Below the pieces are notes generated by a model, which worked only from the letters and a program-made list of their open reading frames with translations, did not search any database and was not told where the DNA came from. A stretch of DNA of 59,730 nucleotides from an uncultured Thermomicrobiaceae bacterium (GTDB lineage Bacteria > Chloroflexota > Chloroflexia > Thermomicrobiales > Thermomicrobiaceae): the NCBI GenBank assembly GCA_938082375.1, contig CALKCJ010000051.1:1-59730 (forward strand), read 5' to 3'. The position numbers were made by a program, and so were the translations under genes. Of the stretch, positions 38,221-47,905 are shown one piece after another. How positions within the stretch are numbered: position 1 is the first letter of the stretch; each line of letters opens with the position of its first letter.

Positions 38221-39474
38221 TCAACGATGTGTCTCCAAATACTGTCGTAGCGCCTCGACAGTGGGCTCCACATACAACGGTTGTCCCGTGAGCTGGGCGA
38301 GCGTATCAGGCCATTTGATGCCGGCAGCGGTCAACAGGCAGACGACTACTTCCGAGGAATCGATTTTCCCGGACCGAGCCAGCTTGGCAGCACAAGCCAC
38401 CGGGAGAGCGGAGGCTGGCTCAACAGCGAATCCTTCATGACCAAGACTTCGCATCGCATCGAGAATCTCATCGTCCGTTGCAGTCGGAGCCCCTCCTTTC
38501 GATTCGCTGACAACCTCGACTGCGTGCAGGCCGACTGAGCGTTCCCGTACTGAGATAGCGATGGACTGGGGCTGGTCGAGGATCGCTGAGGCTTGTCCCC
38601 CCCTCTGCAGCGTGAGCTCGAGCGCGTTCGCACATGCTGGCTGGCATCCGTACATGCGTGGCAGTCGATCGATTAGGCCGAGGTGCCTGAGCTCCTTGAA
38701 ACCCTTCCAGATTCCGTACAATGTGTCTCCGCCAGCGCAAGGAACGAAGATCCGATCTGGCACCACGCCCAGGTCACGGATCAACTCGTAGGCAATCGTC
38801 TTGTACCCCTCCACACCGAACGGATTTGGATGGAAGGAAAAGTTCGGGTCCATTGTCGTTGCCGGATACCAACCATCGTGAGCGACGAGCCATCGTCCGA
38901 AATCCTCGCGCGCGTCCCATTCGGTCAGGATCACGCGTGCCCCATAGCTCTGAATGAGATGCAAGAGCGCTGGTGAGGTCTCTGGCGGGCAGAGAACCAA
39001 TGCCTCGAGCCCGGCACGACGGGCATACGCAGCAGCGGACGCAGCATGATTACCGGTCGAACTGGTGACGACGCGACGGTAGCCCAGCGCGCGAGCTAAG
39101 GCGATGGAAACGACATGGCAACGGTCCTTGTGCGACCACGTCGGGTTGATGCTCTCGTTCTTGAAGTAGAGGTGGTCGAGTCCGATTTGGGCACCGATCG
39201 AGCGAGAACGGATGAGCGGAGTGTTGCCTTCGCCCAGCGAGAGCTCTGCTCCCTCAGCTCCGGCTGGGAGGAGAGGTGCATACTGCCAGATCGATTGCGC
39301 TCTTTCGGTCCAGAACTCTCGAGCAAGCCTGGCCGCGATCCGATGATAGTCGTAATCTACCTCGAGCAGGCCGCCTTGACCGGCAGTCGCGCAGGCCGAA
39401 CAGGTTGTAGGCGCGAGATCGAGCGCATAGGTGGCGCCACAGCGACGACAGCGGAGATACGTGTGCGGATTCAT
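38221..39474 (-). CDS. PLP-dependent threonine synthase-like enzyme
   Basis: 417 residues from ATG at 39474 (GAAAGG 9 nt upstream). A zinc-ribbon-like N-terminus has C9, C12, C25 and C28. The fold-II PLP core follows: GEGNTPLIRS, PTWSHKDR with K116 as likely Schiff-base Lys (usually SFKDR), SSTGNHAAS and PCAGGDTLYG. Threonine synthase, threonine dehydratase or cysteate-synthase-like activities are all possible. Linkage to a flavin oxidase and hydrolases points to a catabolic paralogue, not threonine biosynthesis. It starts 5 nt after the flavoenzyme gene ends. Confidence 0.8.
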   Translation of the reverse strand: MNPHTYLRCRRCGATYALDLAPTTCSACATAGQGGLLEVDYDYHRIAARLAREFWTERAQSIWQYAPLLPAGAEGAELSLGEGNTPLIRSRSIGAQIGLDHLYFKNESINPTWSHKDRCHVVSIALARALGYRRVVTSSTGNHAASAAAYARRAGLEALVLCPPETSPALLHLIQSYGARVILTEWDAREDFGRWLVAHDGWYPATTMDPNFSFHPNPFGVEGYKTIAYELIRDLGVVPDRIFVPCAGGDTLYGIWKGFKELRHLGLIDRLPRMYGCQPACANALELTLQRGGQASAILDQPQSIAISVRERSVGLHAVEVVSESKGGAPTATDDEILDAMRSLGHEGFAVEPASALPVACAAKLARSGKIDSSEVVVCLLTAAGIKWPDTLAQLTGQPLYVEPTVEALRQYLETHR

Positions 39475-39479
39475 GATGG

Positions 39480-40742
39480 TCAACCTTTCTCTGTAGTGGG
39501 ATGCTCTCCGGTCGCGGGGCTACCGGGAAATTCGTCTCTTTCCTCCGCAGAATCACGTTCACCCCGGTAGCGGGACGCCTCCCCGGCAGCCATATGACTG
39601 GCAGCAGTTCGCCAGCCGAAGCGCGCGCGATAAGGGTTGGGAGTATCCTCAAGGGTATCGGCGATAAGACCGCCCAGGATTGGCGCGAATTTAAAGGCAT
39701 GGCCACTGTCTCCCGCAGCGATCGTCAGTCCAGGTCGCTCGGGATGCCGCGCGATCAAAAAATCGCCATTCGGTGTGTCGCAATAGAGACAACAGCGGGT
39801 CTTTACCAACCGCGCCCCTACTAGTGCCGGGAGACTTTCGGCAAGGAAAGCATGAAGTCGCTCGCGTTCACGTAATGGAACAGCGCGCACATCGCCAGCA
39901 GGATGCACGGGCCAGCCAGGGCCATGGTTCGCGATCTTGACTACCCGGGCTCGAGGGTGAAGCGGGAAGCCGTACCAGCCGGTTCGTGAGCTATCGGCGC
40001 TGAAGACGACGAAACGGGGCGGCGTGAAGACTGACGGGTCCGAGGGCTGCAGATAGAAGACAGGTTGGCCCGTCGAACGCAGCATACTTTGCAACTCGGG
40101 GACAAGCAGGGGTGTCCAAGCACCAGCAGCGATCACCACTTCGCCGGCGACAAAACGCTCCCCGTCGATGGTCCGGACACCACGGATGCGGCCATCGATC
40201 ACCAGAAGCTCAGCAACGCCTGTCCGTTCAAAGATCTCCACTCCCTGCCGCCGTGCCTGCGCCAGCAACTGCTCCATGACGCGTCCACTTTCCACATAAC
40301 CATCGTTGGGGTTGAAGTAGCCTTCGACAAAGACCTCCACATTCCAAGCAGGGAACCGCCGGGCGATCTCTACACCGTCCAAGCGTTCGACAGGATACCC
40401 ACAGGCTAAGAGGCTCTGATAGCTCTCGTACTCATAGCTGCCGGGGAGCATCGGCGAGCGAACCAGAAAGACCATCCCTACCTCGTGATACAAATCCTCT
40501 CTGAACAACTCCTCGTTCCATCTCAGCCATCCCGAGCGTGATCGTTCCGCCAAGGTCGTGTATTCTCCATCTGCTCCGTAGTCGATGCGTACCACTCTGC
40601 TAATGTCGGTGGAGGCTCCTCGGTCGTGCGGAAGAGAACCTTGGTCGACGAGCGCAACTCGGTAGCTGCGGGCGCAGAGTTCCAAGGCTGCCGTCACCCC
40701 GAAGACTCCTGCTCCCACGATCAGTACATCGTATGCTCGCAT
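39480..40742 (-). CDS. FAD-dependent amine oxidase, sarcosine oxidase-like
   Basis: 420 residues from ATG at 40742. The frame is open 147 nt upstream into the regulator gene, but the Rossmann motif VLIVGAGVFGVTAALEL begins directly after this ATG. The C-terminal CCLYCDTPNGDFLIARHP and AAGDSGHAFKFAPILGG match monomeric sarcosine oxidase and N-methyltryptophan oxidase. There a Cys in the first block carries FAD covalently. Expected reaction: oxidation of an N-methyl or secondary amine to glycine-type amine, formaldehyde and H2O2. The substrate here is inferred only. Confidence 0.85.
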   Translation of the reverse strand: MRAYDVLIVGAGVFGVTAALELCARSYRVALVDQGSLPHDRGASTDISRVVRIDYGADGEYTTLAERSRSGWLRWNEELFREDLYHEVGMVFLVRSPMLPGSYEYESYQSLLACGYPVERLDGVEIARRFPAWNVEVFVEGYFNPNDGYVESGRVMEQLLAQARRQGVEIFERTGVAELLVIDGRIRGVRTIDGERFVAGEVVIAAGAWTPLLVPELQSMLRSTGQPVFYLQPSDPSVFTPPRFVVFSADSSRTGWYGFPLHPRARVVKIANHGPGWPVHPAGDVRAVPLRERERLHAFLAESLPALVGARLVKTRCCLYCDTPNGDFLIARHPERPGLTIAAGDSGHAFKFAPILGGLIADTLEDTPNPYRARFGWRTAASHMAAGEASRYRGERDSAEERDEFPGSPATGEHPTTEKG

Positions 40743-40782: not shown

Positions 40783-41508
40783 CTAATCCTTTGTCGTGGG
40801 GTGCGAGTCAGCCAGATCATCTGGTAACTCGCCAAGCCGATGGGCGGAGTGCCGAAGATGGTCAAGCATCTTGCGGCGAGCTTTCTCAACGTCTCGCGCC
40901 TTAATCAGTTCATACAGCTCGCGGTGCGCCTCGATCTCCCAGTGGAGGAACTCCGACCCGGCCTTGAGCTCCCCTCGGGCTCGCAGCAGGCCATAGATCG
41001 AGCGCATGAAGTTCAGGAGCACCGTGTTGTGTGCCGCCTCAGCAAGGTGGATGTGAAAGAGTGCCGAGAATTCGTGCGTGGGCTGGTGCCGCGCAAGCGC
41101 ACGGGAGGCTGCTTCCAACGTCTCAGCGATTCGTTGGAGATCAGCAGGGCTTGCTCGTTGTGCGGCGAGGCCAGCGATCGCGACCTCGATGGTCTCGCGC
41201 GCTTCGAGGAGTTCACTCGCGAGGCAGTCGTTCATCAGGGCGGCGTACACATCAGGCCGCAGATACGAGCCGAAATCAACCGGTCTGACGACGGTACCGA
41301 CCCCCGGGCGTGCCTCGAGCAAGCCCATGCGGGTCAAGCTCTGCAGCGCCTCACGTACGGTCGAACGCCCGACGTTGAATTGCGCCATGAGCTCCCGTTC
41401 GGCTGGGAGGAGATCGCCAGGCCGGAGCTTGCCACGGCGCATCTGGTCGAGGAGCTGCTCGGCGACTGAATCGGCGAGCGTGGTGCGCGTTACCGGCTTC
41501 AGCTCCAT
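40783..41508 (-). CDS. GntR-family regulator, FadR/FCD subgroup
   Basis: 241 residues from ATG at 41508 (AAGAGGAACGGG upstream, start MELKPVTRTTLADSVAEQ). ATG codons at 41526 and 41571 are in frame and cannot be excluded. Residues 10-75 are the winged helix (LLPAERELMAQFNVGRSTVRE, cut here at 21 residues in the protein, ending in the recognition helix). Residues 85-225 are the all-helical FCD ligand domain with the metal-type histidines of FHIHLAEAAHN. It probably represses both divergent units and releases on binding a carboxylate ligand. Confidence 0.9.
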   Translation of the reverse strand: MELKPVTRTTLADSVAEQLLDQMRRGKLRPGDLLPAERELMAQFNVGRSTVREALQSLTRMGLLEARPGVGTVVRPVDFGSYLRPDVYAALMNDCLASELLEARETIEVAIAGLAAQRASPADLQRIAETLEAASRALARHQPTHEFSALFHIHLAEAAHNTVLLNFMRSIYGLLRARGELKAGSEFLHWEIEAHRELYELIKARDVEKARRKMLDHLRHSAHRLGELPDDLADSHPTTKD

Positions 41509-41642
41509 CCCGTTCCTCTTCCCCATTTCCCGCCTCATCCTGATTCGACATCTGCTTGCCTGGTGACGCACCCAACCAAGGCAAGAGTGCTCGCCAGGCG
41601 GTTACCGCGAGCGATCTGCGAAGAGCAGCGGTGTACGGATGC

Positions 41643-41671
41643 TTGACAAACACCGCTGCCCGTAGTATAAG
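41643..41671 (+). promoter_or_regulatory. Sigma-70 promoter for the rightward hydrolase/transport unit
   Basis: TTGACA at 41643-41648 is separated by exactly 17 bp from TATAAG at 41666-41671. This is the best promoter match seen in the window. The predicted start is near 41678, about 180 nt before the creatininase-like gene. A FadR-type operator covers the start region. Confidence 0.75.
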
Positions 41672-41692
41672 GGACGTGGGTTGGTCTGACAA
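41664..41692 (-). promoter_or_regulatory. Sigma-70 promoter for the leftward regulator unit
   Basis: On the minus strand TTGTCA (41692-41687) is followed after 17 bp by TATACT (41669-41664). Its -10 overlaps that of the opposite promoter, and its -35 is inside the operator. Predicted start near 41657, about 150 nt before the GntR start codon. Confidence 0.65.
41682..41692. promoter_or_regulatory. FadR-type (GntR/FCD) operator
   Basis: TGGTCTGACAA fits the TNGTNNNACNA consensus of FadR-like repressors. It overlaps the leftward -35 and the rightward start point. Flanking it, TCTGA-CAA-TCAGA (41685-41697) forms an inverted repeat, and AATCAGAT occurs twice (41691-41698 and 41700-41707). The regulator is encoded next to it. 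Confidence 0.65.
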
Positions 41693-41858
41693 TCAGATTA
41701 ATCAGATATCAACGGCGCGGGCGTGACGGTACCCAAGGAAGGTGTCGCTGGTGAATCGAGGGGCTCCAGTAATCGCCGCGGTCGAAACAGTCCCAGGCTA
41801 TCCATCACGGTAGAGCAAACCGAGGCTCCGCCGGGTGATCACCCAGGGGAAGGCAGCC

Positions 41859-42668
41859 ATGAGTGAGAAATACCTCTATGCCAAGATGACTCATGACGAA
41901 GTCAGTGACGCTGTTCGGGAGAGGCGAGTAGTCCTGATCCCGGTAGCTCAGCTCGAGACACATGGCCCACACCTTCCGATCGACGTTGACGTCGTGCAAG
42001 CCCAGTACATCTGTGAGGAGGCCGCTCGGCGCGCCCCAGACGCACTCCTGGCCGCGCCTCCCGTCTGCTATGGGTTCTCTGAGCACGTGATGGATTTTCC
42101 CGGCACGATGACGATTCGACCTGAGATCCTCATCGAGTACCTTTTCGACATCGGGCGCAGCTTCGCTCGCCAGGGTTTCGAGCGCGTCGCGCTTGTCAAC
42201 GGCCACGGCAGTAACCGCCCGATCTGCGAGATCGCTGCCCGACGGATCACGAACGAGACTTCGGCGTACTGTGCTACGCTCAACTGTTTGAGCCTGGCGC
42301 GCGAGGTGATGCGACAGGTCTGTGAGTCTCCAGTCGGTGGAACCGCGCATGCCTGCGAGGTCGAGACGTCGACCTACCTGTATCTCTTCCCAGAGCTCGT
42401 TGAGCGGGACAAGATCGAGGACGAGTATGCGCCAGACTACCGGCCGTGGCGGTGTGACGATTTCCGCGAGGATAGCGGGCCTGTGCATTTTATGGAGTTC
42501 TGGAGTCAGCGCTCGAGAACGGGAGTGGAAGGAGCTCCCTCTTTTGCAACTGCCGACAAGGGCAAAGTCATTCTGGAGACGGCTGTCGCGAAGTTGATCG
42601 AGTTTGGTCGATGGTGGAGGGAGCTTGAATTCCCGCCACGCCATAGCCTTATCGTCACACGGGCCTGA
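41859..42668 (+). CDS. Creatininase-family metal-dependent amidohydrolase
   Basis: 269 residues from ATG at 41859, with GGGGAAGG upstream; an earlier start at 41835 is less well placed. Residues E33, H35 and D44 in LETHGPHLPIDVD match Glu34, His36 and Asp45 of creatininase. H115 is in VNGHGSN, and Glu residues are in AHACEVETS. The position equal to creatininase Glu122 appears to be Ser117, so creatinine itself may not be the substrate. The family opens cyclic amides and related C-N bonds. First gene of the rightward unit. Confidence 0.85.
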   Translation: MSEKYLYAKMTHDEVSDAVRERRVVLIPVAQLETHGPHLPIDVDVVQAQYICEEAARRAPDALLAAPPVCYGFSEHVMDFPGTMTIRPEILIEYLFDIGRSFARQGFERVALVNGHGSNRPICEIAARRITNETSAYCATLNCLSLAREVMRQVCESPVGGTAHACEVETSTYLYLFPELVERDKIEDEYAPDYRPWRCDDFREDSGPVHFMEFWSQRSRTGVEGAPSFATADKGKVILETAVAKLIEFGRWWRELEFPPRHSLIVTRA

Positions 42669-42723: not shown

Positions 42724-43989
42724 GTGCGCTACGCCGAGCTCGCCCACATCTATGACCGGTGGATCGGCTATCCCGGCTACCCGCTCGAGCGGGACTTTTC
42801 TGCTGAGGAGTACCAACTCCGGATTCGCCGGGCCCGGGAGTTGATGATGGAGGCGGGGCTCGACGCGCTAGTCATCACCTCGAGCAGCGTGGGCCGCTGG
42901 TTCACGAGCGAGCTTGAACCGCACGAATGGCATGACCTCTGCCCTGTGCGCTCGGCCTGGTACATCCTGACACACGACGGTGACTACCTGTATATGACGC
43001 CGACAGGAGGCGGCGAGCACTTCAACACCACCCGTCGCAGCACCTGGGTCACGCATATCCGGGCCATCGTCGAGCGCACGGAGTGGCCCCGTTGGGAGAT
43101 CTGGGATCTTCAACAGGTACCGCAGATCTTCGCCGAACTCGGGCTCTCACGTAGTCGCCTCGGGTTCGAACTGGGCGACTGCATGACCCTTGGTATCAGC
43201 GTCAACGACTTCCTGCGGCTGCGCGAGATGATGTCCCACGCCGAGTTCGTCGATGCGTCGCCAGTGATCCGCCGCCTGATGAGCGTCCATACACCGGAAG
43301 AGATCGAACGGGTCCGACGGGCCTGTCAGGCAGCGGTCTGGATTCACGAGCAAGTTCCCTCCGTGTTACGTCCCGGTCTGAGCGAGTGGGAGTTCGTCAG
43401 TCAGCTCGCAAAGCTCTTCTGGCAGCGGTACAGCAAGGATTACGTCTATCGACCAGATGGCGCATGGGATGTACGCAACCCCAAGAGCGGAGATTCCAAC
43501 TTCTATCACGCCGTGATCACCGATCGCACGTTTAGGCGTGGCGACCTGATTGCGCGCGCCTTCAGCGGCGTGAGCTACCGAGGATATCCTGCGGACGTTG
43601 ATCGCGTCTGGTATTTGGGCGATCCCCCGGAGCAGGTCCGCTATTGGTACCGGGTGACTTGGGAGTGCAACCGCGCCATGGCCGAGGCGATCAAGCCGGG
43701 CATCCGTTGCTCCGACATCTACGCGGCCTATGCCCGCGTCGAGGAGAGGTACGGCCTGCCCAAGCGGCTTGTTGGTCGGCTCGGCCACGGACTCAGAAAC
43801 ACAGGAATGCTCTCGGTCCATCCGGACAACCACACCGTGCTCGAACCGGGGATGATCATTTCGGTCGAGCCAATGTTTGGCAACGAGTACGGGTGGTTCG
43901 TCTTGGAGGATCAGTATCTCGTGACCGAGACGGGGCACGAACCGCTGCATGAGCTAGCCCCAGAGGAGCTACCGGTTATTGGCGCGTGA
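42724..43989 (+). CDS. M24-fold hydrolase with incomplete metal site
   Basis: 421 residues from a GTG start preceded by GAGGGGAAGACAGAGCC. The N-terminal creatinase/prolidase domain (about 1-185) precedes a pita-bread domain. Of the five M24 metal ligands, Asp in YPADVDRV, His in LGHGLRN, Glu in SVEPMFG and Glu in VLEDQYLV are seen. The first Asp is missing (GDLIARAFSG in place of a GDLVxxDxG pattern). His262 in NFYHAVIT lies where creatinase has its catalytic His. It may be an amidinohydrolase-like enzyme and not a peptidase. Confidence 0.78.
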   Translation: MRYAELAHIYDRWIGYPGYPLERDFSAEEYQLRIRRARELMMEAGLDALVITSSSVGRWFTSELEPHEWHDLCPVRSAWYILTHDGDYLYMTPTGGGEHFNTTRRSTWVTHIRAIVERTEWPRWEIWDLQQVPQIFAELGLSRSRLGFELGDCMTLGISVNDFLRLREMMSHAEFVDASPVIRRLMSVHTPEEIERVRRACQAAVWIHEQVPSVLRPGLSEWEFVSQLAKLFWQRYSKDYVYRPDGAWDVRNPKSGDSNFYHAVITDRTFRRGDLIARAFSGVSYRGYPADVDRVWYLGDPPEQVRYWYRVTWECNRAMAEAIKPGIRCSDIYAAYARVEERYGLPKRLVGRLGHGLRNTGMLSVHPDNHTVLEPGMIISVEPMFGNEYGWFVLEDQYLVTETGHEPLHELAPEELPVIGA

Positions 43990-45977: not shown

Positions 45978-46964
45978 GTGACCCGGTACATCGTGATCCG
46001 GCTCTTACAGGCCATTCCTCTCCTCTTTTTGGTCAGCGCTGCCGTCTTTGCCCTGATCCACCTCGTTCCGGGTGGGCCTATGGGTGTTTATGGCAAGAAC
46101 CCCAACTTGAGTGCTGAGGATTTAGCCAGACTGGAGGAGAAGCTTGGTCTGAACCAGCCCCTCTACGTGCAATATCTCAACTGGCTTACAAAGGTCATCC
46201 GGGGCGATTTTGGCTACTCCTACGACACCAAGCGACCGGTGCTCGACGAGATCGCTGACCGACTCCCGGCGACTGTCTACTTGATGGGGGCTACCTTTGT
46301 GTTCGTTCTCGCAATCGCGATCCCGGTGGGTGCACTCTCGGCCGCCCGGCAGTACTCATGGGTGGACGTCCTGGTCAGCACCCTCACGTTTGCTGGACAA
46401 GCCATACCGGTATTTTGGCTGGGGCTGATGCTTATCCTCCTTTTCTACGGGTGGGCGCGCAACCCGTTTACCGGCGAGCCACTCCTCCCGGCGCGCGGAA
46501 TGTCGACGCTCGGCGCACCGTTCAGCATTGGCGATTACCTCAAGCATCTTATCCTGCCGATGCTGACACTCGGCGTGGGTTGGATCTCGTGGTACTCCCG
46601 CTATCTTCGGTCCAGCATGCTGGATGTCCTTCACCAAGCCTATATCCAAACGGCGCGAGCCAAAGGGCTGGCGGAGCGCACTGTCCTGACGAGGCACGCG
46701 CTGAAGAACGCTGCCATTCCGCTCGTCACTATCGTCGCGCTCGATCTGCCGACCATCGTTAACGGCGCCCTCTATACCGAAATCATCTTCTCCTGGCCTG
46801 GTATGGGCCAGCTCTTTTTCCGGGCCGCCGTTCGGCGCGACTACCCCATTCTGATGGCCATGACGATGCTCAGCTCGGTGATGATCATCCTGGCCAATCT
46901 GCTTGCTGATGTCGCGTACGCGTATCTCGACCCACGGGTGCGCTACGAACGGTCGAGCACGTGA
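45978..46964 (+). CDS. ABC transporter permease, DppB type
   Basis: 328 residues from a GTG start behind GGGAAAGGCGGC. Six membrane spans are predicted by eye. It starts MTRYIVIRLLQAIPLLFLVS, and the EAA loop that contacts the ATPase is ARAKGLAERTVLTRHALKN. The family signature PGGPMGVYGKNP lies in the first periplasmic loop. It forms the channel with the next gene, 14 nt downstream. Confidence 0.92.
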   Translation: MTRYIVIRLLQAIPLLFLVSAAVFALIHLVPGGPMGVYGKNPNLSAEDLARLEEKLGLNQPLYVQYLNWLTKVIRGDFGYSYDTKRPVLDEIADRLPATVYLMGATFVFVLAIAIPVGALSAARQYSWVDVLVSTLTFAGQAIPVFWLGLMLILLFYGWARNPFTGEPLLPARGMSTLGAPFSIGDYLKHLILPMLTLGVGWISWYSRYLRSSMLDVLHQAYIQTARAKGLAERTVLTRHALKNAAIPLVTIVALDLPTIVNGALYTEIIFSWPGMGQLFFRAAVRRDYPILMAMTMLSSVMIILANLLADVAYAYLDPRVRYERSST

Positions 46965-46978
46965 GAGCTACATGACCG

Positions 46979-47905
46979 ATGCTGGATCGTGCACTTGAAC
47001 AGCAGCCTGTGCCGCTCGCCGCCCGCCACCGGCAGGCCGGCATGCTGCAGCTCGTGTGGCGCGACTTTCGTCGCCATCCAATGGCTCTCGTGGGCGTGGG
47101 CATTCTCAGCGTCATCACTCTCATGTCGATCTTCGCCTTCCTCTACCCCTATGACCCCGAGTCAGTCGATCAGCTCAACCGATTTCAGCCCCCTTCCTTC
47201 CAACACCCGATGGGTACAGATCGGAGCGGGCGGGATGTCATGGCGCGAATCCTCTATGGTGGGCGTGTATCGCTCGTCGTCGGTATTGCTGCGATGGCCA
47301 CGGCTCTCGTGATTGGAGCCGCCATTGGTGGCATCGCTGGCTATTACGGCCGGATACTCGACGCCGTCCTGATGCGCCTGACTGATCTTGCCCTGTCCTT
47401 TCCAAGCCTCTTTCTCTTGATCATGTTGTCGTTCCTCCTCCGCGAGACGCACCTTCCCCTGTTCCAAGGCGGAATCGCGAGCATCGCACTCGTTATCGGC
47501 CTGACGTCGTGGATGAGCGTCGCTCGACTGGTGCGGGCAAGCTTCCTGGTCATCAAGGAGCAAGAGTTCATCACGGCAGCGCGCGCCTGTGGAGCCTCGG
47601 ATGCGCGAATCATGGTGCGCCATATGCTTCCGAACGCAGCCGGCCCGCTGATCGTCAATGCGACCCTTGGAGTGGCATGGGCAATTCTGATCGAGTCTGG
47701 CCTGAGTTTCCTCGGCTTCGGTATCCAACCGCCGACCCCGAGCTGGGGTAACATCTTGAACGACGCACAGAAAACGCTCAGCCTCTATCCCTGGCTCTCC
47801 ATCTTCCCTGGTTTGATGATCTTTTTAACAGTGATTGCCATCAACTACATCGGTGATGCTCTACGCGATGCGTTAGATCCATATCATGTGACAGGGAGAA
47901 GATAA
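46979..47905 (+). CDS. ABC transporter permease, DppC type
   Basis: 308 residues. The N-terminal DppC segment (WRDFRRHPMALVGVGIL) is followed by HPMGTDRSGRDVMARILYG, and the EAA loop AARACGASDARIMVRHMLPN. About six membrane spans. No ATP-binding subunit (DppD/DppF) follows, so ATPases must come from another locus. The gene ends the transporter group; a GC hairpin lies downstream. Confidence 0.92.
   Translation: MLDRALEQQPVPLAARHRQAGMLQLVWRDFRRHPMALVGVGILSVITLMSIFAFLYPYDPESVDQLNRFQPPSFQHPMGTDRSGRDVMARILYGGRVSLVVGIAAMATALVIGAAIGGIAGYYGRILDAVLMRLTDLALSFPSLFLLIMLSFLLRETHLPLFQGGIASIALVIGLTSWMSVARLVRASFLVIKEQEFITAARACGASDARIMVRHMLPNAAGPLIVNATLGVAWAILIESGLSFLGFGIQPPTPSWGNILNDAQKTLSLYPWLSIFPGLMIFLTVIAINYIGDALRDALDPYHVTGRR

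Follow-up and report, generated by a model that had tools for sequence, protein, structure and literature searches.

The intergenic region between a GntR/FCD regulator gene and a divergently oriented creatininase operon of an uncultured Thermomicrobiaceae bacterium carries a rightward sigma-70-type promoter followed by a predicted operator of the FadR/FCD form, and this pair recurs in two further genomes of the phylum Chloroflexota, there too next to homologous regulators. The letters, the gene order and the conservation of promoter and operator are direct observations, made in the 59,730-nucleotide stretch of DNA that we analysed (the window) and in its relatives. We consider it probable, though well short of certain, that the region is a catabolic divergon in which a single site for the FCD regulator controls both transcription units and autoregulates the regulator gene.

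The features of the region are collected in Table 1. The original prediction had placed a GntR/FCD regulator gene beside the site, and this was borne out by Pfam: the protein, whose likely start is ATG 41508, combines an N-terminal GntR winged helix with a C-terminal FCD domain, both above the cut-off, as in FadR/FCD regulators. The oxidoreductase gene begins ∼40 bp past the regulator stop; beyond the PLP-dependent enzyme there is a gap and then a gene for an enolase-superfamily protein. On the other side, the third rightward gene encodes a family-5 extracellular binding protein, and the two ORFs after it (45978-47905) look like ABC permease genes from their sequences alone. NCBIfam models were matched below cut-off only.

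Table 1. Features of the divergent region and of its flanking genes (window positions)
Feature	Position	Strand	Remarks
Rightward sigma-70-type promoter TTGACA-17-TATAAG	41643..41671	+	11/12 consensus; predicted start ∼41678
Candidate leftward promoter TTGTCA-17-TATACT	41664..41692	-	10/12 consensus; predicted start ∼41657
Predicted FadR/FCD-type operator TGGTCTGACAA	41682..41692	.	fits TNGTNNNACNA form
Perfect inverted repeat TCTGA-CAA-TCAGA	41685..41697	.	read from sequence; lengthens operator rightward
Two AATCAGAT direct repeats, 9-bp period	41691..41707	+	candidate accessory half-site
GntR/FCD regulator, first gene of leftward unit	40783..41508	-	Pfam FCD 1.1e-23, GntR 7e-23
FAD-dependent (DAO) oxidoreductase, second leftward gene	39480..40742	-	Pfam DAO 1.7e-52; likely start 40742
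PLP-dependent, threonine-synthase-like enzyme	38221..39483	-	Pfam PALP 9e-68; 4-bp overlap with DAO gene
Creatininase-family amidohydrolase, first rightward gene	41859..42668	+	Pfam Creatininase 1.6e-65
M24 (creatinase/ectoine-hydrolase-like) peptidase	42724..43989	+	profile match; 66% identical to L048:10437-11717 (G121 locus)

On re-reading, the letters and coordinates originally given for both promoters, the operator and the repeats proved exact, and so did the interlocking of the two -10 boxes. The rightward promoter consists of TTGACA (41643-41648) and TATAAG (41666-41671) on the plus strand, separated by 17 bp; it is the sole 11/12 site and the sole plus-strand site of at least 10/12 in the 59.7-kb window. 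The opposing candidate, with TTGTCA at 41692-41687 and TATACT at 41669-41664, also 17 bp apart, is the sole minus-strand site of at least 10/12. The TATA at 41666-41669 belongs to both hexamers, so that the opposed elements share -10 bases, and theirs is the only interlocked pair in the window with at least 9/12 on each side. Interlocked pairs of any quality arose in 7 of 3000 dinucleotide shuffles of the 350-bp intergenic region, and a summed score of 21 in none. The predicted starts, 41678 and 41657, lie ∼21 bp apart, as reckoned from the -10 positions only. We also observed a perfect 10-bp inverted repeat, GCAGCGGTGT / ACACCGCTGC, with its arms 15 bp apart (41625-41659), which flanks the rightward -35 and overlaps the predicted leftward start. 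A repeat as good was found in 59 of 3000 intergenic shuffles, and this one was not seen in either of the relatives described below; it is possibly a second regulator site or a 5' hairpin in the leftward leader.

The operator shows GT and AC 3 nt apart in a TKGT/ACMA palindrome, the operator form of the FadR subfamily being TKGT-N3-ACMA (PMC4494728). From its midpoint, 41687, it is 179 bp to the start codon of the regulator gene and 172 bp to that of the creatininase gene. The two AATCAGAT copies (41691-41698 and 41700-41707) are the sole ones in the window, a number equalled in 12 of 100 shuffles. The first overlaps the operator and forms the right arm of TCTGA-CAA-TCAGA, a point missed in the original prediction; the second could be an extra half-site, and a similar TCAGATTATCAGA stands beside the operator of one relative (G175), with none in the other (G121). 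Elsewhere in the bacterium's own genome no second site with at most one mismatch to TNGTCWGACAANCAGA was found, nor any further operator sites beyond chance.

Two relatives in the phylum were useful for comparison: G121 (JACAEQ010000078.1; L018, L019 and L048) and G175 (L035 and L046). The regulator of G121 is 59%, its creatininase 72%, its M24 peptidase 66% and its enolase-superfamily protein 75% identical to those of the window. The G175 regulator is 36% identical to that of G121; the gene directly after it encodes a creatininase with 59% identity to the one in the window. In all three genomes a homologous regulator has beside it TTGACA-17-TAnAnn and, 12-13 bp farther on, TCWGACAA, and most invariant columns of the three-way alignment belong to the -35 and -10 hexamers, to the operator core or to the GA in the right arm of TCTGA-CAA-TCAGA. 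The composite promoter–operator pattern occurs once per genome in the three and is absent from the reversed-pattern controls; it was written from these very sites, and the new information is its uniqueness, not its presence. A strict operator pattern, likewise built from these sites, finds exact matches in G121 (two) and G175 (one), all at these loci. Hexamers and operator core thus stand at matched spacing in three genomes, and the 8-mer would be met by chance at any of three offsets with a probability of ∼7e-5 in one relative and 1e-4 in the other; that the whole arrangement is accidental and transcription starts elsewhere is extremely improbable.

Comparison therefore leaves the operator and the rightward promoter well supported as predicted elements, and the conservation in two genomes supports the prediction that a repressor binds at about +5 to +15 in the rightward operon. 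The check originally proposed, conservation of the 65-bp block beside related regulators, gave a divided answer: the rightward promoter, the operator core and their spacing are kept in G121 and G175, but the interlock is absent from G121, beside the one close homolog of the regulator (L019). The G121 divergon resembles the window's in its regulator, in TTGACA-17-TACACT followed by the operator, and in the creatininase, M24 peptidase and enolase-superfamily homologs nearby. Unlike the window, it has two separate promoters, each with its own operator copy and not interlocked; the leftward TTGACA-17-TACACT runs from 1782 down to 1754, and its operator, TCAGACAAATAGACC, occupies 1731-1745. In the same locus, the ORF divergent from the regulator (L019, 1807-1906), aspartoacylase/M14-like by eye, has its first ATG within the spacer that separates the two hexamers of the conserved promoter; its true start is probably a downstream ATG, at ∼1873 or 1903.

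In the divergon that we propose, the product of the regulator gene would bind TGGTCTGACAA(TCAGA) at 41682-41697. Rightward transcription would start near 41678, which would place the bound dimer at about +5 to +20, and the operon for creatininase, M24 peptidase and peptide transporter would stay blocked until an inducer released the dimer. The dimer would also cover the -35 of the leftward promoter, whose -10 has its TATA in common with the rightward one; this promoter most likely serves the genes of the regulator, the DAO oxidoreductase and the PLP enzyme. We propose that in this way one site would control both units and the regulator's own expression.

The part of this proposal that calls for most care is the leftward promoter. 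The operator contains its -35, and its -10 makes use of a palindromic TATA, so that the two promoters do not count as independent evidence. Read in reverse, the operator opens with TTGTCA, a single letter away from a consensus -35, and TATA reads the same on both strands; the leftward match is thus partly automatic. When only the letters outside the rightward hexamers and the operator were randomised, every simulation produced an interlocked leftward match of 9/12 or better, and 37% produced one of 10/12 or better; when the rightward promoter alone was fixed, these values were 5.7% and 0.9%. These results favour the view, which we hold to be a serious but clearly less likely alternative, that only the rightward promoter and the operator are functional, that the leftward match is their by-product, and that transcription of the regulator, free of control by the site, begins at a weak non-consensus promoter closer to the gene. 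The separate promoter with its own operator upstream of the G121 regulator points the same way, as does G175: there an interlocked leftward TTGTCT-16-TATAAC (9/12) is found at the operator despite the regulator being transcribed rightward, and the gene on the left, ∼300 bp away, reads as leuS. A leftward match toward leuS is what a by-product would predict. The G175 pattern is nevertheless compatible with a leftward promoter that functions in the window, where TTGTCA-17-TATACT is the only leftward candidate of at least 9/12 within 41490-41740 and where the 17-bp spacing and TATACT are better than a by-product would need. A leftward or bidirectional promoter driving the regulator, oxidoreductase and PLP-enzyme genes is, on these predictions, probable.

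The palindrome might also act partly as RNA, the 5' hairpin GGUUGGUCUGA-CAA-UCAGAUUAAUC of the rightward transcript stabilising or attenuating the mRNA, and the first 38 nt do fold at -11.2 kcal/mol (z -3.8). The leader of G175 likewise folds better than its shuffles (z -2.5), but that of G121 does not (z 0.04). The three have in common the core TCWGACAA, which fits the FCD operator form, and not the stem. We set the leader hairpin aside as inconsistent across the relatives and regard such a role as improbable.

The divergon that we favour is of a known kind in both layout and logic. Divergent starts that share -10 bases constitute bidirectional promoters, which account for ∼19% of E. coli RNAs (PMC12825309); this contradicts the original claim that such compact control is unusual. 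The class is defined by start distances of 7-25 bp, most often 10, 18 or 23 bp, and has regulated members in PacrA/acrR and PsoxS/soxR (PMC12825309, PMC10268837). As in these two, the hexamer pair in the window shares -10 bases, a regulator gene lies on one side, and the ∼21 bp between the starts falls within the class range; unlike in E. coli, where the starts are mapped, those of the window are predicted, and their distance is not one of the modes. The same study weakens the suggestion that the interlock acts as a mutually exclusive switch, since it finds that promoters at basal activity fire too seldom for polymerases to compete appreciably (PMC12825309). The interlock is an ordinary bidirectional promoter in form and need not act as a switch.

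Single mid-intergenic operators are routine in FadR-type divergons: where these include the regulator gene, single sites lie near the middle of the intergenic region (n=96 FadR divergons with a TF gene; PMC4494728). The window matches this description, with an FCD regulator divergent from a structural operon and one TKGT/ACMA-like site in mid-intergenic position, and it departs from it in that the site is one position off the symmetric TTGTC-W-GACAA and is accompanied by an extra AATCAGAT repeat. Direct repeats beside the site recall E. coli NanR, an FCD protein that binds (GGTATA)3 via three dimers (PMC8012715), and the NanR model is the top NCBIfam match of the regulator, far below cut-off; unlike the NanR array, the window has one extra repeat, which is not kept in G121.

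Wider searches returned few further instances. No ortholog of the regulator was found in three genomes of the same genus or elsewhere in the family, the leader DNA (41680-41858) matched only itself among 40 relatives, and neither a DNA similarity search of the plasmid collection nor a related-locus search with the regulator as query gave a match. Upstream of the ∼36-41% identical homologs from the same order (L008 and L010-L016; L009 and the own-genome paralogs L002, L004 and L005 were left out of the scan) there was no TNGTNNNACNA site. A regulator 46% identical to that of G121, in G172, has neither the motif nor a creatininase neighbour. Of 400 Chloroflexota genomes, 14 matched the composite pattern when its spacing was relaxed, and 4 matched the reversed control.

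Apart from the three genomes compared above, the matches include a group of five Chloroflexota genomes in which a related layout stands just ahead of an amidohydrolase gene (G334, G477, G493, G501 and G222; L083, L084, L085, L086 and L087, respectively), where TTGACA-17-TAAACT is followed by (T/A)TGTCWGACAA. The one amidohydrolase tested, that of L084, is an 8-oxoguanine deaminase by NCBIfam (687 bits against a cut-off of 532). These five genomes yielded no close relative of the regulator at E 1e-20, and a different protein therefore probably uses the site there, which is likely a purine-catabolism operator of the FadR/FCD form. A second copy of the promoter–operator layout in G493 (contig C163, L094) lies upstream of an ABC-transporter substrate-binding protein, of the branched-chain amino acid type by NCBIfam but below cut-off.

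As compact divergent control, the region is an ordinary example. Its interest is twofold. In Chloroflexota, where few FadR-type regulators have been analysed so far (6 of 634; PMC4494728), it provides a conserved promoter–operator module for a creatininase / M24-peptidase catabolic cluster and its uncharacterised GntR/FCD regulator. It also indicates that an operator of the FadR type can at the same time form part of the promoter facing it. Since TTGTC is similar to TTGACA, an FCD operator placed ∼13 bp after a TATA-containing -10 might itself supply the opposing -35, and so create a reverse promoter repressed by its own regulator; we offer this as a speculative generalisation that is more doubtful than the divergon itself. 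If true, it would provide a ready evolutionary route to autoregulated divergons, in which the window would represent the single-site state and G121 the two-site state.
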